From positions 1 to 42,269 of the forward strand of contig CALRDH010000002.1 of assembly GCA_943354835.1 (NCBI GenBank): DNA of 42,269 nt. The letters are read 5' to 3'. Below are positions 4,480-36,260 of the stretch, piece after piece; the stretch's first letter is position 1, and each line of letters opens with the position of its first letter. The position numbers and the translations under genes were made by a program. The notes beneath the pieces are model-generated. The model was not told where the DNA came from. It did not search any database and worked only from the letters and a program-made list of their open reading frames with translations. The DNA is from a candidate division WWE3 bacterium. GTDB taxonomy: Bacteria > Patescibacteriota > WWE3 > 2-01-FULL-39-13.

Positions 4480-5310
4480 ATGAAAAAAGAAAATTCTATA
4501 ATTTTATTTAATCAAAAAGAGGTCCGTCGTGTGTGGGACGATGAAAAAGAGTTGTGGTATTTTTCGGTGGTGGATGTGATCGGGGTTTTAACTGATTCCA
4601 CAATACCAAAACGATATTGGAGTGACTTAAAAATTAAATTAAAAAACGAAGGCAGTGAGGTGTACGAGAAAATCGTACAACTGAAATTTAAAGCCTTAGA
4701 TGGAAAATATTACTCTACAGATTGTTTCTCTACCGAAGATATTCTCCGCGTTATCCAATCCATCCCTTCTCCAAATGCTGAACCGTTTAAATTATGGCTT
4801 GCGAAAGTTGGATATGAGCGAATTGAAGAAACAGAAGATCCAGAACTCGCTTTTGACCGGGCCATGAAAACGTATTTGCAAAAAGGATATTCGAAAGAAT
4901 GGATAAATCAAAGACTTAAAAGTATTGAAGTACGCAAAGAATTAACTGATGAATGGCAGGAACGTGGAGTCAAAGAAGGTTTGGAGTATGCAATATTAAC
5001 TGATGAAATTACAAAAGCATGGGCTGATAGAACTGTGAAAGATTACAAAAAGCTAAAAGGTCTAAAAAAAGAAAATCTACGAGATAACATGACAAATTTA
5101 GAATTAGTTCTTAACATGTTGGCAGAAGTATCCACTACAGAAATTTCAAAAAAACAAAAACCAGTCGGCTTTTCTAAAAATAAAGAAGTCGCGCGTAAAG
5201 GCGGAACTGTTGCAAAAAAAGCTAGATTAGAAATAGAAAAACAAACTGGTGTGAGCGTAATTTCCGATAAAAATGCAGAAAGACTGGCGGATAGTAAAAA
5301 GTTAGTTTAG
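4480..5310 (+). CDS. dinD: DNA-damage-inducible protein D family (BRO-N), copy 1
   Basis: 276 residues, close to the length of E. coli DinD. The N-terminus (about 6-110) is a BRO-N type DNA-binding domain, recognisable from VRRVWDDEKELWYFSVVDVIGVL and IQSIPSPNAEPFKLWLAKVGYER (given here as short blocks of the domain). The C-terminal half is helical and charged, with NLRDNMTNLELVLNMLAE and a GGTVAKKARLE segment. E. coli DinD is SOS-induced and acts on RecA filaments; that role here is inferred. It is very similar to copy 2 from the BRO-N core onward. An inverted repeat lies at codons 61-67. The gene overlaps the convergent rdgB-like gene by nine bases. Confidence 0.85.
   Translation: MKKENSIILFNQKEVRRVWDDEKELWYFSVVDVIGVLTDSTIPKRYWSDLKIKLKNEGSEVYEKIVQLKFKALDGKYYSTDCFSTEDILRVIQSIPSPNAEPFKLWLAKVGYERIEETEDPELAFDRAMKTYLQKGYSKEWINQRLKSIEVRKELTDEWQERGVKEGLEYAILTDEITKAWADRTVKDYKKLKGLKKENLRDNMTNLELVLNMLAEVSTTEISKKQKPVGFSKNKEVARKGGTVAKKARLEIEKQTGVSVISDKNAERLADSKKLV
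4661..4679. repeat. Inverted repeat in dinD copy 1, centred on codon 64
   Basis: Arms TGTACGA (4661-4667) and TCGTACA (4673-4679) around the centre at 4670, the middle base of codon 64. That codon is ten residues before the Asp of the conserved DGK. The same homologous base is the centre of unrelated palindromes in dinD copies 2 and 3. Confidence 0.85.
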
Positions 5311-9238: not shown

Positions 9239-9880
9239 TTAAAATAATTTTGTAATTATAGAAGTAACGATTCCCCCTAGTATTGCTGATATAACCACTA
9301 AAATAATTTGATCCTTGTTTCTTTGTATGAAATTTTGTCTATCATTTTGAAAAACAAAACTAACAATAGAATATCTATAAAATCTTATATAGTGAACGAT
9401 TGCCAGGTAAGGAAGACATAATAATGTTATGGTTATTGAAATCGACTTTTCTGTTGTACTTAGTACGTCTTTGTATGATATTAGATTGAGCAACATGACA
9501 AATAATAGAAAAATGATAGGGGTGGAGACTCTAATAAACCAAAGTAAAATGGGTCTTTCTCTTTTTTCTATAACGTTTGAGATCTTTGTTAATGCTCCTA
9601 CCGTGATAAGATTTTGGCTTTCAAATGTGTAGATTTCTGCTATAGAGTGGGATAAATCTACGTAGATGGATGGTAAAAAAGTTTGAATTGTCAATTCTGT
9701 TGTGTCTGTTGTGTCTTTGGGAATTGATTCGACCGTTTCGTATTCGTATTCTTTTGTTTCAAGTGTATATTTACTTGGTTTTAAATCGTTTTTGATTATG
9801 TCTTCTATCTCAACTAAGTCATCTCGAAATAATCTTGGCATCTTAAATTTTCTGCTTAATTTTTGAGATTTCTTTTTCAT
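9239..9880 (-). CDS. Unknown three-helix membrane protein coupled to dinD copy 2
   Basis: 213 residues. A basic start (MKKKSQKLSRKFK) is followed by a soluble domain of about 90 residues beginning MPRLFRDDLVEIEDIIK, with an acidic tract. Three hydrophobic segments follow at about 110-134, 146-165 and 190-212. Its ATG overlaps the dinD copy 2 stop as ATGA, so the two are translationally coupled. I do not recognise the family. The layout, a soluble sensor-like domain plus a C-terminal membrane bundle, resembles membrane effectors partnered with regulators, but that comparison is only structural. Downstream it is followed by mutL, which has its own promoter. Confidence 0.75.
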   Translation of the reverse strand: MKKKSQKLSRKFKMPRLFRDDLVEIEDIIKNDLKPSKYTLETKEYEYETVESIPKDTTDTTELTIQTFLPSIYVDLSHSIAEIYTFESQNLITVGALTKISNVIEKRERPILLWFIRVSTPIIFLLFVMLLNLISYKDVLSTTEKSISITITLLCLPYLAIVHYIRFYRYSIVSFVFQNDRQNFIQRNKDQIILVVISAILGGIVTSIITKLF

Positions 9881-10728
9881 TTATTGTGTAAATTTTTTTG
9901 ATCGTTATTTTGCAGGCTTTTGGCATTTTGATCAGTTATTACATTTTTACCAGTTTTGTTTTCGATTTCTTTTCTCGCATTTCCGGCTATTGTGCCTCCT
10001 TCGCGAGCTACTTTTTTATTGTCATTAAAAGTTTCCGGTTTTTTTACCTTAGAAATTTCTGTTGTGGAAGTTTCTGCTAGCATATTTAAAACAATTTCTA
10101 GGTTAGTCATATTATCGCGCAAATTTTCTTTCTTTAGATTTTTAAATTTTTTGTAGTCTTTTGTTTTCATTCCTGCCCAAGCGAAGGATATCTCGTCTGT
10201 TAAAATCGCGAATTCGTCTGCTGATTTTATACCCCTTTCATTCCATTCATTTGTTAAATCTTTTCTTATTTCAATGCTTTTTAATCTCAAATTTACCCAG
10301 TTCTTGGAATATCCTTTTTTGAGGTATGTTTCCATCGCTCTTTGAATTGCTTTTTCTGGGTCTTCTGTTTCTTCCACTCTTTCATATCCAACCCTTGCCA
10401 GCCAAAGCTTAAATGGTTCAGCATTTGGCGATGGAATTGATTGGATGATGCGAAACATAACTTCAGTATTGGCAACGTCAGTTAGTCGCATTTTGCCATC
10501 TGGAGCTATCATTTTCAAACCGTGACATTTTGTCACGGTTTCGTTTCCGCCTTCTTTAAGAAGCCTTTCTTTTAGTTTTCGCCAATACGCTACTGGATCG
10601 ACACTTTTAGTTAGAATTGCAATTACATCAGAAACTGAAAAATACCATAGTTCATTTTCATCGTCCCAGTGACGGCGAATTTGTTTACCATCAAATATTG
10701 CTATTGTTTTATTTATTACTTTTTCCAT
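9877..10728 (-). CDS. dinD: DNA-damage-inducible protein D family (BRO-N), copy 2
   Basis: 283 residues. BRO-N domain at about 8-115 (IRRHWDDENELWYFSVSDVI, then RIIQSIPSPNAEPFKLWLAR), followed by the same helical C-terminal half as copy 1, ending in an extra Asn/Lys-rich tail. From the BRO-N core onward it is nearly colinear with copy 1; the most divergent stretch is around residues 45-75, where its palindrome lies. It is transcribed away from dinB, 61 bases downstream of dinB, and overlaps the membrane-protein gene by four bases. Its -10 box TATAAT at 10755-10760 leaves a leader of about 20 bases. Confidence 0.85.
   Translation of the reverse strand: MEKVINKTIAIFDGKQIRRHWDDENELWYFSVSDVIAILTKSVDPVAYWRKLKERLLKEGGNETVTKCHGLKMIAPDGKMRLTDVANTEVMFRIIQSIPSPNAEPFKLWLARVGYERVEETEDPEKAIQRAMETYLKKGYSKNWVNLRLKSIEIRKDLTNEWNERGIKSADEFAILTDEISFAWAGMKTKDYKKFKNLKKENLRDNMTNLEIVLNMLAETSTTEISKVKKPETFNDNKKVAREGGTIAGNARKEIENKTGKNVITDQNAKSLQNNDQKNLHNK
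10517..10541. repeat. Perfect inverted repeat in dinD copy 2, centred on codon 67
   Basis: Arms AAACCGTGACA (10517-10527) and TGTCACGGTTT (10531-10541) are exact over 11 bases with a 3-base centre. The central base, 10529, is the middle of codon 67, ten residues before the Asp of DGK. The encoded peptide is ETVTKCHGL. Confidence 0.92.
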
Positions 10729-10789: not shown

Positions 10790-12034
10790 TTATCTTCCAA
10801 AAGAGATCCTGTCTGGGATTGTATTTTCTTTTAAGGATGCGGGCTTTATTGTGAATGCTCCATATTTTGAGTTTATTTTGTCGATTATTTGTGTCAGTTT
10901 CTGTTCCTTTATTGTGTCAGAGAATAAATCGAGTTGGGTTCCTGTTGCCTTTTTTATGTTCAAACAATATATCTCGAGTCTGCGGGCCGATTCTTTATAA
11001 GGGTTTTTTGCATATATTGAAAGTGCTGATTTATAAATGTCTATAGAATCGGATATGTCTTTTGTCGAATTTATTGTGTCGTGCCAGTATTTATGATTCG
11101 CGAATTTTATACCAATACCAATTGTGTTTGTTGTATAACCTTCGGCTCGAAGTCTTTGGCCTGCCTTCTCGATTAACTTTTGAAGAACTATAGTTATTTC
11201 TGTCTTTTGTGAAACTGTGTGAAGTGGAGTTGGTAAAACATATGATTGGCTGAATGATCCTCTTTTAGTTTGGAAATCGTCGATTTCGTGTCCGTGAAGA
11301 CGGAGTACCCAATAGTAGGAGGAGATGGATTTGAAGGCGGCGCCGATTGTAATCGGCGCCGCCTCATAAAAATCCAAAACATTAAAAATTCCAACTTGAT
11401 TAAGTCTTATTTCGTTATTTTTTCCGATTCCGTGAAGATCTGAAAGTTTAAGTTTTCTGTAAACCTCCATAAAATTATTTTTATCAATTTGCACAAGTCC
11501 ATCTGGTTTTATAATTCCAGCCGCGGTTTTTGCCAAAAACCTGTTTGAACCGATTCCGATTGAAACGCTAATCCACTCGCCTATTTCAGACCTTATACGT
11601 TTTTTTATTTCATTCGCGATTTTTATAAGTCCAACATTCATTGAAGGATAATTTTTTAAATGTAAAACAAACTCATCGATGGACTTTGGCTCTATATGAT
11701 CTGTATACCTATCTAGAAGTTTTCGCATTTTTGAATGAACCAGCCTATATTTTGGCGGATCGGCTTCAAGCGTAATTAAATCGGGAAAGATTTTTTTGGC
11801 TTCAAAAACTCGCATGCCTGTTTTTATCCCGACTTTTTTAGCTTCTATAGACGGAGCAAGAATGCATCCTGCTGGTATATTATTTGCGCAAACCGCAATT
11901 TCTTTTCCTCTTAAACTTGGATTATATTGTTGCTCGATTGTTGCAAAGCACGAATTAATATCCACGTGCATTACGCTTGGAATCTCATTATTAAAGGCTA
12001 TATTTTTAAGATCCTGAATTATCACGTTTGACAT
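10790..12034 (-). CDS. dinB: Y-family DNA polymerase IV (DinB)
   Basis: Low-fidelity polymerase that copies past lesions. From the chosen start it is 414 residues. Palm residues are seen in MHVDINSCFATIEQQ (first metal Asp) and SIDEF (catalytic Asp-Glu). GSNRFLAKTAAG and the helix-hairpin-helix LHGIGKNNEIRLNQVGI follow, then a little-finger domain. The open frame runs to an ATG at 12124, but those 30 codons are translated REP repeat. The ATG at 12034 has TATATT exactly six bases upstream and begins just before the conserved core, so it is preferred. A 14-base-arm GC hairpin lies within the gene. Likely LexA-controlled in this setting. Confidence 0.93.
   Translation of the reverse strand: MSNVIIQDLKNIAFNNEIPSVMHVDINSCFATIEQQYNPSLRGKEIAVCANNIPAGCILAPSIEAKKVGIKTGMRVFEAKKIFPDLITLEADPPKYRLVHSKMRKLLDRYTDHIEPKSIDEFVLHLKNYPSMNVGLIKIANEIKKRIRSEIGEWISVSIGIGSNRFLAKTAAGIIKPDGLVQIDKNNFMEVYRKLKLSDLHGIGKNNEIRLNQVGIFNVLDFYEAAPITIGAAFKSISSYYWVLRLHGHEIDDFQTKRGSFSQSYVLPTPLHTVSQKTEITIVLQKLIEKAGQRLRAEGYTTNTIGIGIKFANHKYWHDTINSTKDISDSIDIYKSALSIYAKNPYKESARRLEIYCLNIKKATGTQLDLFSDTIKEQKLTQIIDKINSKYGAFTIKPASLKENTIPDRISFGR
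11335..11364. repeat. GC-rich perfect inverted repeat inside dinB
   Basis: Arms AGGCGGCGCCGATT (11335-11348) and AATCGGCGCCGCCT (11351-11364) are exact complements with a 2-base loop. It encodes EAAPITIGAA in the stretch after the helix-hairpin-helix. Confidence 0.92.
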
Positions 12035-17445: not shown

Positions 17446-18264
17446 TTATTGACTTATTTTATTTCTCGGCAAAAAATTCTTCTTGGAAACTATTGATTTA
17501 TCAATTTCTTTTTCTAATTGCTCTTTTGCAATTCCTGCAATTCGACCGCCTCGTTTTGCATCATTTTTAAGTTTTTCTACACCTTGTGAATCTTCTATTT
17601 TATGTATTTCTGTTGTTGATCTTTCTCCAAGCATAGTAAAAATGAGTTCGAAATCGTCCATATGATCTCGGAGATTTTCGCATTTTAAACCTTTGAGCTT
17701 TTTATATTCATTTGGAGTGATTCCAAAAGTAGCTTTAGAAATTTCTGAAGTTAAAATTTCGTAATCTTTTTGCTCTTGTGCTCCTCTTTTTTGCCATTCG
17801 TCGGTCAATTCTTCTCTTATAGCGATACCTCGGACTCTTTTTTCTATCCAATCCTCGGAGTAGCCTTTTAATTTATAAAGAACCCGTGTTTTTTTTGTTG
17901 CAAGTTCTGGGTTTTCTATTTCTTGAACTCTTTCAAAACCAACTTTTGCAAGCCATCTTTTAAATGGTTCTGCTTTTGGAGATGGAATTGATTGAATAAT
18001 GCGAAAGATGCCTTCTGTATCGGCGCAATCTGTTTCTCGCATTTTTCCGTCTTCTGCTAGCAATTTGAACTGTCTACAAATTGTAGATGGTTCAAACTCT
18101 TCTTCACTTTGAGCTCTTGCCTTCATCGCTGTCCAGTAAACACTTGGTCTATCACTATCTGTTAATGCCTCAATAACATCAATAACGCTAAACCACCATT
18201 CATTTTCGTGAAGAATTTTTCTTATTTTTTTATCTTTAAACAAAGCAATTTTTGTCGTTTCCAT
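17446..18264 (-). CDS. dinD: DNA-damage-inducible protein D family (BRO-N), copy 3
   Basis: 272 residues, the most divergent of the three copies. BRO-N domain (IRKILHENEWWFSVIDVIEAL, then RIIQSIPSPKAEPFKRWLAK) and the C-terminal half (YKKLKGLKCENLRDHMDDFE, GERSTTEIHKI, KRGGRIAGIA) line up with copies 1 and 2. It lies 57 bases downstream of uvrC on the same strand but has its own consensus promoter. Its intragenic palindrome is the largest of the three. Separate retention beside an excision-repair operon suggests a damage-response role; this is inference. Confidence 0.85.
   Translation of the reverse strand: METTKIALFKDKKIRKILHENEWWFSVIDVIEALTDSDRPSVYWTAMKARAQSEEEFEPSTICRQFKLLAEDGKMRETDCADTEGIFRIIQSIPSPKAEPFKRWLAKVGFERVQEIENPELATKKTRVLYKLKGYSEDWIEKRVRGIAIREELTDEWQKRGAQEQKDYEILTSEISKATFGITPNEYKKLKGLKCENLRDHMDDFELIFTMLGERSTTEIHKIEDSQGVEKLKNDAKRGGRIAGIAKEQLEKEIDKSIVSKKNFLPRNKISQ
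18064..18096. repeat. 33-base imperfect palindrome in dinD copy 3, centred on codon 62
   Basis: Inner arms TCTACAA (18073-18079) and TTGTAGA (18081-18087) around base 18080. After two mismatched pairs, outer arms TTTGAAC (18064-18070) and GTTCAAA (18090-18096) pair perfectly. Fourteen of 16 base pairs match. Base 18080 is the middle of codon 62, ten residues before the Asp of DGK. Confidence 0.92.
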
Positions 18265-28454: not shown

Positions 28455-28530
28455 AATAAATCACCTCCTAGAAATGTCTGAACTAGGACTTGCTCGTTCA
28501 CGGGTTTACCGTTTTTGTGCCTTTATTCTA
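28455..28530 (-). promoter_or_regulatory. Promoter and structured leader of the 58-aa gene
   Basis: An extended -10 (TGC-TAGAAT, 28525-28530) overlaps the helD stop and leaves a leader of about 64 bases. Near its 3' end TCCTAG (28488 to 28483) can pair with CTAGGA (28471 to 28466), covering four bases of the Shine-Dalgarno AGGAGGTGA (28469 to 28461). A second small hairpin is ACGG/CCGT around 28500-28512. The layout suggests translation control. Confidence 0.45.
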
Positions 28531-30601
28531 GCAGATGGGTCAAGTTTATCCCATATATGAATAGTCTGTTGATTGATCTTGTGCAGGCAACGAATAGTTT
28601 TTTTGCGCCCTGTGGGGTTTTTGGAAATATTTTTTCGTTTGGATCGATTATGAATACGGTATCGAATTCAAGGCCTTTGACTAGTGATTGTGGAATTAAA
28701 TAAATGCCGGAGCTATTAAAATCCTCGAATTTTTCATCGACAATTACGTAGTTTATGTTAAGTGATTTTAGTAAATGTGCCGTGTCGTCGAATTGGTTTG
28801 GATTTGGTTCGATTATTCCAATTGATCTTTGATTGCCGTCTTTATTTATATTTTCGATATCTTGTGAAATTTGGGAAAGGAGGTCGATTTTATTTTTGAA
28901 ATTTGCTATTTTTGGAGTTTCACCTTCTCTTCTAAATGGTTCCGGAAGGTGCTTGAAAGTCGGAAATTTTTGCAAAATGGATTTTGCATGTGTAATTATT
29001 TGTTTTGTTGTCCTATAGCTGATTTTTATTTCATGGTATGAGATGTCGTCTTTTGCAAAAATTTCCTCAAGATCAGTCCAGTCTTTTAGTCCCATTTCGT
29101 CTTCTGTTGATTGGTTTAAATCACCTAAGATTGTAATTCCAAGTCCTTCTGATAAATTTTGTATCGCTAGATAATTTATTAAAGATAAATCCTGACCTTC
29201 ATCTACTATTACTTGTTTATATTTTATTTGTTCAAGTCCATATAATTTATCTATCAAAAGATATATTATGCTTAGCTCATCAATATCGATGTTTTTCTTG
29301 TCAAATTTTTCAAGACCAACAAATTCGTCATAGATTTCAACCGGCTTGAATGCTTTTAGCATTTTGCTTAGTTCTTTTTCTGCAAGTTCTAGTTGACCAA
29401 TTTTTCTTGCAATTATTAGATTGCTTTTGCCAAAACTTTCGTTTAGTTCTTTAATTTCATTTTTAATGTCTTCGTTGATTGATTTTAATTGATAGAATGC
29501 TGGTCTTTGTTGCATTCGAAATATTTGTCTTTCTATATTGAATTCTTCATAATATTTCTTTGTTTTTAATTCGGCGTGTATTTTTTCCTTATACATGTTA
29601 GCAAACTTTGCCATTTTTTTATTTATTTCGTTAATATTTGTACCTGCCCAATTTCCATTTCTTTTTTTTGTAAAATTTGCGTCATGAAAATCAAGTTTGT
29701 TCGATTTGAATATTTCAATTATTTGTCCTGGTAATGTGTTTCTTGTTAAGGAATAAATTTCTAATTCTGGAAGTGTTTTGGCTACGTAATTAACTAGAAC
29801 TTTTGACGATGACAAAAGAAGTGTGTTGTCTTCGCGAATTTCATCTTTGAATGTGTAAAAAAGATAAGAAATTCTGTGAATTGCGACTGTTGTTTTTCCG
29901 CTTCCGGCGGTTCCTTGAATTACGTTTAGTTTGTATGGATTTGATCTTATTATTTCGTTTTGGCCTTTCTGAATTGTTTTTATGATGTCTTCTAAAATTC
30001 CGCCAGTTTTCTTTTTTATTGCTTCTGATAAAAGATCGACGCGAAGGTTATTATCGTAAATACCAGATATTTTTTGGTTAACGATATCTATGTTGCGCCT
30101 TAAATTCAGATCTCCGTGAATTATTTTGTGGTCAATTTTCCAAGGCTGATATTTAACTGGAACATCAAATTCGTATTTTGCGTTTTTTTGAGGTTCTTGA
30201 TAATTGTAATAAAGCGATGAAATTGGAGCTCTCCAATCGGATATTCTGTGCGTCGCATCCTTTGGTAAAAATGAATGTTTGCCAATATAAATTATATATG
30301 GGGTGGTTGATCCTTCCATGTCAAAATCGATTCGAGCAAAGTACGGTGTGTTTATTTGCGCTTCCATTCGTTCGATGTAATTTCGTTTGAAAATGTAGTC
30401 GCGGTTTTGCATTGTCTTATTTGCGAGTTTTATGATTTCTACAGCTTCGTCTTGTTTTGCTTCTTCTGATGCTTCTTTTAATCGTTTTGAATAGTCGTCC
30501 TCGATGCTTTTTATGTCAGCTTTGATTGATGCGAATTCATCTTTAAGGATTTCGAGAATCTTGTTTAAGTGTTTGTTTTCGATTTCTTGAATTGTGCTCA
30601 T
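28523..30601 (-). CDS. helD: HelD-like superfamily 1 helicase (RNA polymerase recycling factor)
   Basis: 692 residues. The coiled-coil N-terminus (about 1-75) is followed by the HelD-specific block PYFARIDFDMEGSTTPYIIY, YIGKHSFL and ISDWRAPISSLYYNY. The UvrD-type motor has VIQGTAGSGKTTVAIHRISY near residue 230, VDEGQDL and GLEFDTVFII. HelD pushes stalled RNA polymerase off DNA and nucleic acid. Its presence among repair genes suggests transcription-replication conflict relief, an inference. It diverges from the gene at 30645 across 43 bases. An extended -10 TGC-TAGAAT lies ten bases before its ATG. Confidence 0.9.
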   Translation of the reverse strand: MSTIQEIENKHLNKILEILKDEFASIKADIKSIEDDYSKRLKEASEEAKQDEAVEIIKLANKTMQNRDYIFKRNYIERMEAQINTPYFARIDFDMEGSTTPYIIYIGKHSFLPKDATHRISDWRAPISSLYYNYQEPQKNAKYEFDVPVKYQPWKIDHKIIHGDLNLRRNIDIVNQKISGIYDNNLRVDLLSEAIKKKTGGILEDIIKTIQKGQNEIIRSNPYKLNVIQGTAGSGKTTVAIHRISYLFYTFKDEIREDNTLLLSSSKVLVNYVAKTLPELEIYSLTRNTLPGQIIEIFKSNKLDFHDANFTKKRNGNWAGTNINEINKKMAKFANMYKEKIHAELKTKKYYEEFNIERQIFRMQQRPAFYQLKSINEDIKNEIKELNESFGKSNLIIARKIGQLELAEKELSKMLKAFKPVEIYDEFVGLEKFDKKNIDIDELSIIYLLIDKLYGLEQIKYKQVIVDEGQDLSLINYLAIQNLSEGLGITILGDLNQSTEDEMGLKDWTDLEEIFAKDDISYHEIKISYRTTKQIITHAKSILQKFPTFKHLPEPFRREGETPKIANFKNKIDLLSQISQDIENINKDGNQRSIGIIEPNPNQFDDTAHLLKSLNINYVIVDEKFEDFNSSGIYLIPQSLVKGLEFDTVFIIDPNEKIFPKTPQGAKKLFVACTRSINRLFIYGINLTHLLE

Positions 30602-31577: not shown

Positions 31578-31865
31578 ATGCCAACTGTTTATCAAAAAAA
31601 TCTAAGAATGGTCAAGAAAATTTATGCGGATGATACAGAAGTTGTGGATGAGGGAGTAGATTATACGGGAGATGCTGAATTAATAGCCCAATATGTTGAG
31701 GCAAAACTAAACGGAATGAGTGAAGCAGAATTTGCTGAACAATTTCCTGTAATTACAGAAAGATTGACTGATCCAGGTTTTACTGAATTAGTAAGTGAGG
31801 TTGAGCATGCTTTAATAAATAAAGATAATGATGAAGCTGATATTGAGATTCCGAAATTTGCGTAA
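31578..31865 (+). CDS. Unknown small acidic protein (95 aa)
   Basis: 95 residues. A basic start (MPTVYQKNLRMVKKIYADDT) is followed by an acidic body (DGDAELIAQYVEAKL-type helices, FAEQFPVITERLTDPGF) ending in DIEIPKFA. No membrane segment, cysteines or known motif. It is one of only two genes here with a strong Shine-Dalgarno sequence, so it was perhaps acquired or is highly expressed. It is followed by a DedA-tail repeat on the other strand. Confidence 0.65.
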   Translation: MPTVYQKNLRMVKKIYADDTEVVDEGVDYTGDAELIAQYVEAKLNGMSEAEFAEQFPVITERLTDPGFTELVSEVEHALINKDNDEADIEIPKFA

Positions 31866-31914
31866 ATAAAAGTTCGCAAACATTAGGTTTTATTCTTTGT
31901 GTCCTGCCTGTTTG

Positions 31915-31958
31915 TTCTTCCCTATTATCTTCCACGCCACAAATCCAAAGGCTCCGGC
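31915..31958 (-). repeat. Copy B of the DedA 3' end
   Basis: Bases 31923-31958 match the DedA coding end at 33312-33347 with two or three differences. In frame the minus strand reads AGAFGFVAWKIIGKNK, whereas DedA reads AGAFGFVAWKIIKKKN. Bases 31915-31934 are identical to copy C (32838-32857). It follows directly after the stop of the gene at 31979. Confidence 0.75.
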
Positions 31959-31978
31959 TGAGGTTTCGTGTTTTGCTG

Positions 31979-32539
31979 TTAGTTTTTATTAATTCTTGTA
32001 AGCAAGTAGGCTTTTGTTTGCGAGTCGATTGAACCTATTGTGTTTATTACTATTATTGAATAATTATTGTATTTGTCTGGATTTAGCGTTTCGTATATAG
32101 ATTGAACATTTGCAGATTTAGTGTTGTATAAATCTGTAATGACTTTGTTTGTGGGGCTCTTTAGAGATACTATATATCCTTGTGTAGATTGGACATTTTT
32201 ACCATCATAATAGTAAATATCCGATGATGTAACTATATAGCCTTCCGACTTTGCATCTTCTGTTAAGGAATCTTTTAAAACATCGATACGTGATTCAAGG
32301 CTAGTGTCGATACCAGAACCTTCGACCAGGCCTTTTTCTTGTTTTAAAAGTTGAAGAAGATCATCTTTATCATTGGAACTTTCAACAGAATTATAAACTG
32401 TGGAAAATTTTTTGAATTGTTTGTTTTCACTGATTTTTGATGCACTAAAATAACCCAATAAAATCAGTAACAGAATCCCTATTAATAGTGATATAAGTTT
32501 AGGACTAAAACTAATATTTATATCGTCGGAGTTTGTCAT
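31979..32539 (-). CDS. Unknown membrane-anchored protein (186 aa)
   Basis: One N-terminal transmembrane helix (about 14-32, LISLLIGILLLILLGYFSAS), then an extracytoplasmic domain with a helical stretch (SSNDKDDLLQLLKQEKGLVE) and a mixed alpha/beta part (GYIVTSSDIYYYDGKN, YSIIVINTIGS). No recognised family. The gene starts nine bases after the 82-residue membrane gene, and the pair is enclosed by DedA-tail copies C and B, so they may have arrived as one cassette. Confidence 0.7.
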   Translation of the reverse strand: MTNSDDINISFSPKLISLLIGILLLILLGYFSASKISENKQFKKFSTVYNSVESSNDKDDLLQLLKQEKGLVEGSGIDTSLESRIDVLKDSLTEDAKSEGYIVTSSDIYYYDGKNVQSTQGYIVSLKSPTNKVITDLYNTKSANVQSIYETLNPDKYNNYSIIVINTIGSIDSQTKAYLLTRINKN

Positions 32540-32548
32540 GATATCTTC

Positions 32549-32797
32549 TTATTTGGTCTCCATTTTTGAAGACATAATACTAAGGTTAACCATTATATTT
32601 AAAAGAAAACAAGCAATAACAATGCTTCCTAAGAAAAACATTATAACTCCGAGTCCTCTTTGAATTTCTTCAGAGAATAAGTCCCATTCAAAAAGTAAAT
32701 CAGCAAAGGCAAACGAAGCAAAAAAGATCATCAATACAATAGTTATAAAACCAGTTGATATAGTTACTCCTTCGAGCTTCCTTTTGTTAATTTTCAT
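32549..32797 (-). CDS. Unknown two-helix membrane protein (82 aa)
   Basis: Basic start (MKINKRKLEG), then two hydrophobic helices (about 15-34 and 51-75) joined by an acidic loop (EWDLFSEEIQRG). Small integral membrane protein of unknown function, paired with the gene downstream. An extended -10 TGC-TAAAAT lies nine bases before the ATG. Confidence 0.65.
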   Translation of the reverse strand: MKINKRKLEGVTISTGFITIVLMIFFASFAFADLLFEWDLFSEEIQRGLGVIMFFLGSIVIACFLLNIMVNLSIMSSKMETK

Positions 32798-32837
32798 AAT
32801 AGACTGATTTTAGCATTTTAAAGGCAGTGGTCAACTT

Positions 32838-32880
32838 TTCTTCCCTATTATCTTCCAGGTGATAAATCCGATAGGTAAGG
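32838..32880 (-). repeat. Copy C of the DedA 3' end, diverged
   Basis: The minus strand reads LPIGFITWKIIGKKS followed by a stop, the same C-terminal pattern as DedA (GAFGFVAWKIIKKK). It shares an exact 20-base stretch with copy B. It lies in the same frame as, and after the stop of, the 128-residue gene. Confidence 0.6.
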
Positions 32881-32914
32881 TCGCGGATACGTTCAATCCG
32901 AGGTTGTTGTTTGT

Positions 32915-33301
32915 TTATCCGTTGTATAGAATTTGTGTTACAACAGCGTTGTTTCCGTCGTGGTTTCCTTTTTTCATGCCTTCTTCGTTTAGTATTGCCT
33001 CGACTGAGATAGAAAAGTATTCATCTTTAACCTCTTTTGGGGTGAATGTATCTGAACCTTCAGGACAGAGTTGTTCAACGACATGCGTCTCCGGAACATC
33101 TTGCATGTATGCAGTATAAGAAACGGCTTTTAAAACTTTAGATTTTGCATAATCTCTAATTTGATCTTCCAATGCTGGAATGCCGTGTGTATTAAGCGTT
33201 GCTGTTAATGTCGCGATTTCGTTATCAATGAAAGTTTTAACAACTGGCAATGTGTATGATTCCCATTCCCTGTATTTAGTTTCGTTTGTACTAATTTGCA
33301 T
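32915..33301 (-). CDS. Unknown soluble protein (128 aa)
   Basis: 128 residues, mostly helical then a beta-rich end (DEYFSISVEAILNEEGMKK, NAVVTQILYNG). No signal or known motif. Its ATG lies inside the last codons of dedA and overlaps them by 11 bases in another frame, so translation is probably coupled. After its stop the same frame continues through the copy C tail to a second stop. It may have been inserted at the DedA 3' end. Confidence 0.6.
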   Translation of the reverse strand: MQISTNETKYREWESYTLPVVKTFIDNEIATLTATLNTHGIPALEDQIRDYAKSKVLKAVSYTAYMQDVPETHVVEQLCPEGSDTFTPKEVKDEYFSISVEAILNEEGMKKGNHDGNNAVVTQILYNG

Positions 33302-33938
33302 TTTTCTTTTTTATTATCTTCCATGCCACAAATCCAAAGGCGCCGGCGGCGATTGCGTAGATGACAAGGTGTTCGTATTTGCCTATGAATTCTGAAACGG
33401 CGTTCCAGTTTTCGCCAAGTGCGAATCCTGCGTATGTGAGTATTAGGCTCCAGATGAATGTTCCAAAGAATGTGAATGCGCTAAATTTGAAGATGTTCAT
33501 TTTTACAAATCCGGCTGGAACTGATATTACAGTTCTTCCAAGTGGAACGACTCTGAATATAAGAACTGTCCAGGCTCCATATTTTTCAAACCATCCTTCA
33601 GCTTTTTCAAGATCGGAAAGCGAAATAAAAACGTATTTGCCATATTTTTCGACGAATTGTCTTGTCTTAGGACCGTTAAATTTTGATCCAAGATAATAAA
33701 GGACAAGAGCTGCGGCAAGTGATCCAACTGCTCCTGAAAGTGAAATTAACCAAATGTTCATTTTCCCTTGTGATGCCAAAAATCCAGCCCATGGAAAAAC
33801 AAATTCTGAAGGAATAGGAGCAATAATATTTTCAATAAAAGTGACGACGATAATTCCCCAATATCCGAAGCGGACGATCCAGTCTGAAATTAATGCAATA
33901 AATGGTGAGAAAAGTTCAGATAGCATGATAAAATTCAT
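33291..33938 (-). CDS. DedA/VTT-family membrane protein
   Basis: 215 residues, several transmembrane helices. Family signatures: FIENIIAPIPSEFVFPWAGF (re-entrant acidic/proline motif) and IFRVVPLGRTVISVPAGFV with the conserved Arg-x3-Pro-x2-Arg pattern. DedA proteins flip undecaprenyl phosphate or other lipids across the membrane. The C-terminus AGAFGFVAWKIIKKKNAN is the source of the repeats at 31.9 and 32.8 kb. A second start four codons downstream (33926) is possible. It diverges from rsmI with eight bases between the two ATGs. Confidence 0.9.
   Translation of the reverse strand: MNFIMLSELFSPFIALISDWIVRFGYWGIIVVTFIENIIAPIPSEFVFPWAGFLASQGKMNIWLISLSGAVGSLAAALVLYYLGSKFNGPKTRQFVEKYGKYVFISLSDLEKAEGWFEKYGAWTVLIFRVVPLGRTVISVPAGFVKMNIFKFSAFTFFGTFIWSLILTYAGFALGENWNAVSEFIGKYEHLVIYAIAAGAFGFVAWKIIKKKNAN
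33312..33347 (-). repeat. Copy A: intact DedA 3' end, reference for copies B and C
   Basis: The part of dedA coding for AGAFGFVAWKII. A near-identical copy occurs at 31923-31958 and a diverged one at 32846-32880. Confidence 0.75.
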
Positions 33939-33946
33939 AATATCAT

Positions 33947-34657
33947 ATGTCTACTTTATACGTAATACCTACTCCAATCGGAAATATAGGCGATATCACA
34001 ATTAGAGCTATTGAGGTTTTAAAAAAGCTTGAAGTGTTGCTATCGGAAGATACGCGCATGACATTAAAACTTCTTGGACTTTTAGAAATTGATGCAAAAA
34101 ACAAACGACTAATAAAATACTTTGATCATAACGAAATGAATAAAGTTTCAGAAATTACAGGAATGCTTGATTCGGGAGTTGATATTGGAATCGTTTCTGA
34201 CGCGGGAACTCCTGTTATAAATGATCCTGGATATAAACTTATAAAAGCAGTGCGCAAAACTTCTCATAAAATCGAAGTTTTGCCCGGCGCAACCTCTATT
34301 ACAACTGCCCTTGTTGCATCAGGTTTAGCTCCTGATAAATTTTCGTTTATCGGATACTTGCCAAGAAAAACTGGTGAACTAACTCGACTTTTAAACTCGA
34401 TAAAAGAAGCAAATTCCTTGATAAAAGCAACCTACATAGCATTTGAATCGCCATTTAGACTTGCAAAATCAATTGAGGTCATGCAAGATGTCTACGGCGA
34501 TGAAGCAGAAATCGCGATTTGCAAAGAGCTTACAAAAATGCACGAAGAAGTTCATACTGGATCTGCAACGGAGCTTTTGGAAATCTTAAAAACAGACAAA
34601 TACGCGACAAAAGGCGAAATCGTAATTTTAATTAATTTAAACAACAAAAATGGATGA
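33947..34657 (+). CDS. rsmI: 16S rRNA 2'-O-ribose C1402 methyltransferase RsmI
   Basis: 236 residues, tetrapyrrole-methylase fold. It opens with YVIPTPIGNIGDITIRA, then LLSEDTRMTLKLL, SDAGTPVINDPGY, the GATSITTALVASGLA segment and a C-terminal ICKELTKMHEEV. It methylates the ribose of C1402 in the ribosomal P site. Its end overlaps the next gene by eight bases (coupled translation). Confidence 0.94.
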   Translation: MSTLYVIPTPIGNIGDITIRAIEVLKKLEVLLSEDTRMTLKLLGLLEIDAKNKRLIKYFDHNEMNKVSEITGMLDSGVDIGIVSDAGTPVINDPGYKLIKAVRKTSHKIEVLPGATSITTALVASGLAPDKFSFIGYLPRKTGELTRLLNSIKEANSLIKATYIAFESPFRLAKSIEVMQDVYGDEAEIAICKELTKMHEEVHTGSATELLEILKTDKYATKGEIVILINLNNKNG

Positions 34658-35330: not shown

Positions 35331-35598
35331 CTTGCGGGCCTGGCCCTTCAGGGCCTAGGCCGTTTGAGGGTTGGCCTCCGTATATTGGATTAGTCCCGTG
35401 ATTTAGAGCATCAAATCCTATAAAGGAAGTCCGGTGTGGCCTTCGTGGACCCATTTTATCGTCATCAGGTCTATTTCTATACCCTGCACCATTGCAGTAT
35501 CTTGTTTCTGTCCATTTCTGGCTCCAGCCGGTTTCGTCTAGCTCTTGTCTTTGGTCTGGATTCTGAGTTTTTTCTGCAGGCACTTCTATAAATTCCAT
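35266..35598 (-). CDS. Unknown 110-aa ORF ending in a translated REP element
   Basis: The first 70 or so residues (MEFIEVPAEKTQNPDQRQEL, WSQKWTETRYCNGAGYRNRP, polar with Trp and Arg) look protein-like. From about residue 73 the frame runs through REP copy R1 (GGQPSNGLGPEGPGPQ) and on into sequence antisense to the mutase-like gene. The original C-terminus was probably replaced by the REP insertion. No family known. It overlaps the convergent gene by 65 bases, which is rare here, so the true end or gene status is doubtful. Confidence 0.4.
   Translation of the reverse strand: MEFIEVPAEKTQNPDQRQELDETGWSQKWTETRYCNGAGYRNRPDDDKMGPRRPHRTSFIGFDALNHGTNPIYGGQPSNGLGPEGPGPQATPYTAQSPSPMGSQPSSPEE
35334..35380 (+). 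repeat. REP-like element R1
   Basis: Contains GGGCCTGGCC (35336-35345). CCTGGCCC and GGGCCTAGG form a stem with a TTCA loop and one bulged A. It is a direct repeat of R2 with only scattered changes over 47 bases. It starts right after the mutase-like gene's stop and may act as a terminator. Confidence 0.85.
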
Positions 35599-35612: not shown

Positions 35613-36260
35613 TCATAGTGGCTCATCCGGGCCTGGCCCTTCAAGGCCTAGGCCGTACTGGGGTTGGCCCGAGGAGTAGCGCTCTATTCTGCGATGATCG
35701 GTCGTGGTATCGATTAGATAGCCCCTTTTTATCCATTTCGGAAATTCGCCTGTTAAATAATATTTCAGCGATGTATGAGGATATTCGATTGCGTGTTGTA
35801 CTAGTTTTGCTTTATATGGATTTAGGTGAATGTATCTAGAAGTTATTATCAGTTGATTATCTGACTTTATATTGATTGCACGATAGCTGCCTTCTATTAG
35901 AGGGCCTCGCCTCTTGTATTTTTGATTATAGTAGATTGAATATAAAGTCAGAATCCGTCTCATTAAATTTGTAATGCCATATTTTTTTATATTTTTACAT
36001 AGTAGGTGAAAATGATTTGGCATAATGGCAAAGGCTTCTAGTTCAATTTCTTTCGCAACTGAATTGGTGGAGGTTAATAATGCTCCCCATTTAGTTGAGC
36101 GCTTTTCTATGAAATTTGGAGTCAAATATTTTTCAAGAAGATAGAGAAAATATTTGTAATCTTGTGGAGATTTATACATCACCATTTTATTTATACCTCG
36201 AGCATATAAATGGTAGTAAGTATCTGCAATGAATGTTTTGGTTTTATTCTTATACGGCAT
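35613..36260 (-). CDS. REP-associated tyrosine transposase (RAYT, Y1 family)
   Basis: 215 residues. N-terminal YYHLYARGINKMVMY, then the HUH motif in AIMPNHFHLLCKN, the RGPLIEGSYRAINI strand and the catalytic tyrosine region SRYIHLNPYKAKLV, followed by YPHTSLKYYLTG. This is the IS200-like REP transposase class, which nicks REP hairpins and is thought to spread them. The last 16 or so residues (GQPQYGLGLEGPGP) are encoded by REP copy R2. R3 lies just upstream and R1 downstream. All motifs are present, so it could be active. Confidence 0.9.
   Translation of the reverse strand: MPYKNKTKTFIADTYYHLYARGINKMVMYKSPQDYKYFLYLLEKYLTPNFIEKRSTKWGALLTSTNSVAKEIELEAFAIMPNHFHLLCKNIKKYGITNLMRRILTLYSIYYNQKYKRRGPLIEGSYRAINIKSDNQLIITSRYIHLNPYKAKLVQHAIEYPHTSLKYYLTGEFPKWIKRGYLIDTTTDHRRIERYSSGQPQYGLGLEGPGPDEPL
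35627..35673 (+). repeat. REP-like element R2, inside the RAYT 3' end
   Basis: Contains GGGCCTGGCC (35629-35638), TTCA loop and AGGCCTAGG arm. It matches R1 over about 47 bases in the same orientation, and supplies the RAYT C-terminal codons. Confidence 0.85.

Follow-up and report, generated by a model that had tools for sequence, protein, structure and literature searches.

The window analysed here, a 42,269-nt stretch of DNA from a candidate division WWE3 bacterium, contains an interval in which the 3′ end of a dedA gene recurs behind small orphan genes (Table 1). Read on the minus strand, the order is dedA, the 128-aa gene, tail C, the 82-aa gene, the 186-aa gene and tail B, as the original prediction had described it. 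The nearest NCBIfam models for the dedA product are UptA-type undecaprenyl phosphate transporters, matched with a score below the cut-off.

Table 1. Features of the variable interval, with positions in the window (G001, the same-genus genome used for comparison).
Feature	Position	Strand	Remarks
rsmI-type methylase gene	33947..34657	+	bounds the variable region on the left; synteny with G001
dedA	33291..33938	-	215 aa; VTT domain
Tail A	33301..33358	-	3′ end of intact dedA
128-aa orphan gene	32915..33301	-	G001 has a homologue reduced to a 3′ remnant in this position
Tail C	32835..32892	-	diverged dedA tail, probably old; 38/58 to A
20-mer TGGAAGATAATAGGGAAGAA in tail C	32838..32857	-	identical to that of B
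82-aa orphan gene	32549..32797	-	two hydrophobic segments (read from the sequence); absent at the G001 locus
186-aa orphan gene	31979..32539	-	N-terminal hydrophobic helix; no match in G001
Tail B	31912..31969	-	dedA tail, probably young; 48/58 to A
20-mer TGGAAGATAATAGGGAAGAA in tail B	31915..31934	-	
95-aa gene, convergent	31578..31865	+	right border of the variable region; common to G001

The start codon of the 128-aa gene overlaps the dedA stop (overlap of 11 nt), and tail C starts approximately 10 nt past the stop of the 128-aa gene. The two tail-bounded blocks are 0.46 and 0.92 kb in size. In composition the 128-aa gene resembles dedA; the block between tails C and B has a G+C content of 30.5%, with both of its genes at the 4th-5th percentile, the 186-aa gene (30.6%) being near the 5th percentile of the contig genes. 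Searches with the small genes against Pfam, PHROGs, NCBIfam and PADLOC gave no match at a convincing level, the best hits being phrog_1255 (E 0.004) and, with a score far under the model cut-off, halo_CC_star_2 (E 0.001). Single-sequence AlphaFold models were poor (pLDDT 43 for the 186-aa and 49 for the 128-aa protein). Viral contigs contained no match to the exact 20-mer or to the 128-aa or 186-aa protein, and a search for mobile relatives of the block genes found none.

Several other features of the window were recorded. A gene for a REP-associated/IS200-like Y1 transposase (best NCBIfam model REP_Tyr_transpos, E 4e-14, below the cut-off) is located at 35613-36260 on the minus strand and has no significant match at the syntenic place in G001. 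Palindromic GGGCCTGGCCCTTCARGGCCTAGGCC repeats lie at 35335-35376 and 35628-35669, the latter within the 3′ end of this gene. Three similar genes of 272-283 aa are found within 14 kb (4480-5310, 9877-10728 and 17446-18264). The first two have opposite orientations and are 70% identical over 559 bp; the product of the third, the one tested, has a BRO N-terminal domain. The UvrD-type protein of 692 aa encoded at 28523-30601 shows weak similarity to GajB models in PADLOC-DB and is likely to be an ordinary helicase.

The three tails, each of 58 nt, make up a direct-repeat family that is larger than any other between 29.0 and 36.5 kb. When tail A was scanned over the whole window, it matched itself (58/58), tail B (48/58) and tail C (38/58), the next-best place on either strand giving 31/58; the recurrence of the dedA 3′ end at the two predicted positions is thus real. 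B encodes AGAFGFVAWKII at 31923-31958, nearly identical to the end of dedA, and C encodes the diverged LPIGFITWKIIGKKS followed by a stop, both as claimed. The exact 20-mer said to be common to B and C was also found, within flanks that have diverged. B and C agree at 41 of the 58 positions, and the probability of a run of 20 given that number of matches is low (permutation p = 0.003).

The displaced tails start no more than approximately 10-15 nt from the stop of the gene before them, keep the dedA codon phase and contain no internal stops. Their homology can be traced back to the HLVIY codons of dedA clearly in G001, weakly in C and not in B, so that the full extent of a tail would be up to approximately 75-90 nt. 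Repeats at the locus are confined to the tails, with no further dedA sequence beside them, and no palindrome was seen in the 20-mer. A search of the genome (884 kb, 8 contigs) returned three tail matches and no fourth copy, a search with the 20-bp core gave one unrelated match with 3 mismatches, and dedA itself gave a single match at E ≤ 0.001. Contig C2 (181 kb) and 200 kb of contig C1 were inspected for other genes whose 3′ tail recurs behind small genes; there were none, which indicates that such repetition is not a common background feature.

The family comparison set comprised five genomes, one of which, G001, belongs to the same genus. Its enolase, phosphoglycerate-mutase-like and rsmI genes are collinear with those of the window (76-80% nucleotide identity; 77% aa identity for rsmI). 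Beside rsmI, the first codons of dedA are present (45/49 identical, counting the upstream region) and the dedA body is missing. Next come what is left of the 128-aa gene, its 3′ part, and a single dedA tail, which directly adjoins the homologue of the 95-aa gene (identity of 45% in the matched part). The remnant shares 11 of its 25 C-terminal residues with the 128-aa protein, in frame to the stop, a score that none of 200,000 shuffles matched. The single tail, T (HLVIYAIIATIIGFVAWRAVVEKKGRKSDR), is 75% identical to tail A over 57 nt. Neither the 82-aa/186-aa block nor a second tail is present at the G001 locus, and the 186-aa protein has no match anywhere in that genome. Within G001, the deletion of dedA down to its first codons and tail is seen at L042:8874-9060, and the sole other DedA match is distant and lies on another contig.

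The presence in G001 of the 128-aa remnant with one tail, and the absence of the 82-aa/186-aa block, indicate, as far as sequence comparison goes, that the unit of 128-aa gene plus displaced tail is older than the split within the genus and that the unit of the 82-aa gene, the 186-aa gene and tail B is polymorphic and tail-bounded. The comparison of related genomes that had been proposed as a check thus gave a positive result, one tail in G001 standing against tail, 82-aa/186-aa genes and tail in the window; it also means that the gene content is not the same everywhere, as simple duplication of dedA had been expected to leave it. In two other genera of the family the dedA end differs and the tail does not recur downstream, nor does it recur at eight more distant dedA loci, and a scan of named genomes with dedA found distant relatives only. 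The suggestion that the region is a hotspot for small cassettes is not borne out, since two events are visible and none of ten other genomes of the family and phylum has tail repeats beside dedA.

The relative ages of the tails were estimated from their divergence. Fourfold-degenerate sites of four long genes are 39-63% identical between the window genome and G001, and sequence free of constraint since the split should therefore look about half alike. In the 36 nt located 5′ of the core, C is 44-56% identical to all other tails (19/36 to A, 16/36 to T), and B matches A at 29/36. The 20-nt core shows no difference between B and C (20/20); A scores 17/20 and T 11-13/20. Against such neutral divergence, an exact 20-mer with diverged flanks would mark a younger recombination at the tail. 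The simplest reading is that B is younger than the genus split and that C combines an old 5′ part with a young core, which is what a crossover inside C during the younger event would leave. This timing argument rests on 20-36 alignment columns, and the resemblance of the 3′ flank of B to T is weak. T is nearer to A than neutral decay predicts, for which gene conversion or constraint is needed.

No integrase or remnant of one was found in the blocks or adjoining them. The genome search identified two tyrosine recombinases of the phage-integrase family, apparently of Xer type and each on its own, and three serine recombinases. None of these is at the dedA locus, and the serine recombinase that was inspected abuts tRNA-Glu. 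No dif-like 28-bp site was found at the tails, the proteobacterial-type pattern, which may not be that of the host, giving 9 matches compared to 16 in the reversed control. The 20-bp core is not conserved in the G001 tail.

We consider it about an even bet that the locus, judged by its sequence, is the scar left by two or more insertions that took place in succession at the dedA 3′ end, with both of the following steps. Before the species split, a replacement dedA 3′ end together with the 128-aa gene would have become attached to dedA in the vicinity of its HLVIY codons. The previous dedA tail, which is C in the window and T in G001, would thereby have come to lie behind the 128-aa gene; the resulting arrangement is seen in both genomes, and the mechanism is what we infer. 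Later, in the lineage of the window, the 82-aa/186-aa block would have entered at the displaced tail by a crossover in the 20-bp core, after which the block would have been flanked by C and by a newly acquired dedA-like tail, B. Here, presence and absence are observed and the polarity is presumed; loss of the C-B block in G001 through tail-tail recombination could reverse it. In G001, dedA itself would have been lost afterwards, leaving the single tail.

In this two-step account the tail would be where recombination occurs, since DNA taken up from relatives has that dedA end as well. Horizontal transfer has been reported as extensive in Patescibacteria (PMC12455944), a group to which the size of the present genome and the small genomes throughout its phylum also point. 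Recombination of taken-up DNA, either RecA-type or illegitimate (homology-facilitated), appears somewhat more likely than a dedicated integrase, given the lack of an integrase in the blocks, the lone Xer-type proteins and the absence of a dif-like site at the tails; the agent is deduced, not read from the locus. The account is favored by the absence of repeated dedA tails in other genera and by the low G+C content of the C-B block. Against it, tail-tail similarity is approximately 55-80%, poor for RecA, and the locus is visible in two genomes only, with two events. Of the original proposal of repeated insertion at a gene 3′ end, the tail-bounded presence and absence in G001 sustains the core, two events being visible.

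Tandem duplication followed by decay, in which dedA or its 3′ part would have been duplicated with the downstream gene and the duplicate bodies deleted to leave tails, is a possible but unlikely origin. Partial gene copies ordinarily arise in this way, and both the codon phase of the tails, free of internal stops, and the state of G001, with the dedA body deleted and a tail kept, are what it would produce. However, the stretches between the tails contain no further remnants of dedA, and each displaced tail starts shortly past the stop of an unrelated gene, at roughly the same dedA codons in both cases. B is also much the younger of the two, and the gene content between tails differs, with the C-B block missing in G001. 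Duplication and decay thus account for the tails, but not for the differences in gene content or age.

Site-specific integration, in which the dedA tail would be a true att site for small elements, or for remnants of larger ones that had lost their integrase, seems to us distinctly unlikely. As in ICE/IME/CIME accretion, these would have been added in tandem, with a dedA end supplied by each newcomer in place of the existing one. This origin is a live rival because the exact 20-bp core of B and C, set in unlike flanks, looks like the core common to an attL/attR pair; restoration of the dedA reading frame by insertion, the tail-bounded presence and absence in G001 and the orphan gene content also fit, and degenerate elements keeping att sites alone have been described (PMC5704250). 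The blocks are nevertheless just 0.46 and 0.92 kb and have no integrase in or beside them, the tyrosine recombinases of the genome look like lone Xer-type proteins, the inspected serine recombinase abuts tRNA-Glu, the dif-like matches did not exceed the control and the core is not conserved in the G001 tail. The last of these points, together with the lack of an integrase in the blocks and of mobile relatives, also counts against the original suggestion that the tail acts as an attachment site. It is improbable that the blocks are minimal integrase-free cassettes using the dedA 3′ coding end as attachment site, moved in trans by a chromosomal Xer or serine recombinase and accumulating as a small array in one small-genome lineage. 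An assembly or binning artefact joining variants of one locus is highly improbable: the evidence does consist of genome assemblies, but no result points to such an error, the tails differ by 17-34%, which is more than collapsed repeats would show, a homologous tail also follows the 128-aa remnant in an independent genome, and the flanking gene order is preserved.

The locus behaves like tandem accretion at a gene 3′ end or like illegitimate recombination. Small, mostly single-gene blocks in one orientation and bounded by a repeat are characteristic of integron gene cassettes. The dedA blocks are likewise small, of one orientation and repeat-bounded, but no dedicated integrase lies at this locus and their repeat is the dedA coding tail. 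In ICE/IME/CIME tandem accretion of the ICESt1 type (PMC5704250), successive blocks similarly lie between direct repeats of the target gene 3′ end, an intact gene end is restored each time, and CIMEs retain att sites without an integrase. The dedA locus has the 3′-end repeats at the block borders, the identical B/C core and, if the polarity is as presumed, an empty site in G001; it does not have an integrase in the element or an active relative supplying one. Unlike those elements, its blocks are smaller than 1 kb and lack genes for integration or transfer, even as remnants, and no full element related to them is known. PAISt, at the 3′ end of Streptomyces bacA (PMC4057263), is also an island of modular structure, situated at the end of a protein-coding gene and containing direct repeats both inside it and at its flanks. 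It is large, however, its tyrosine recombinase (intSt) has been tested and its site is an 8-bp palindrome, whereas the dedA locus has no recombinase and its 20-mer no visible palindrome. In homology-facilitated illegitimate recombination of linear DNA (PMC3240628), one homologous and one illegitimate end can insert foreign DNA beside a homologous gene, as may have happened here; that process is known from experiments in other bacteria, whereas the dedA locus shows scars only and has no demonstrable long homologous anchor.

If the insertions are real, the locus would be a readable record of a streamlined genome gaining orphan genes without a visible mobile element, with one gene end used repeatedly as a crossover site. 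It would also provide a signature that can be searched for in small genomes, namely a gene tail repeated behind orphan genes with tail-bounded presence and absence. The case concerns one locus in one genus, reveals no new machinery and represents a kind of genome change already known.

A duplication of a gene end was also observed elsewhere in the genome, in this case of a 5′ end. Contig C2 contains a recent 126-bp direct repeat (G000:C2:52635-52760 and 53941-54066; L075:10366-10491 and 11672-11797), 96% identical, which consists of the start of an 876-aa TrwB/HerA-like gene (its first codons and the sequence upstream of them) and flanks three small orphan genes (157, 77 and 78 aa). Just to the left of this repeat is a large serine recombinase gene, the 3′ end of which overlaps tRNA-Glu. 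A second copy of the 876-aa TrwB-like gene (49% identical) is located near another serine recombinase (G000:C2:149929-152538 and 154516-154953), which suggests a second related integrated element.
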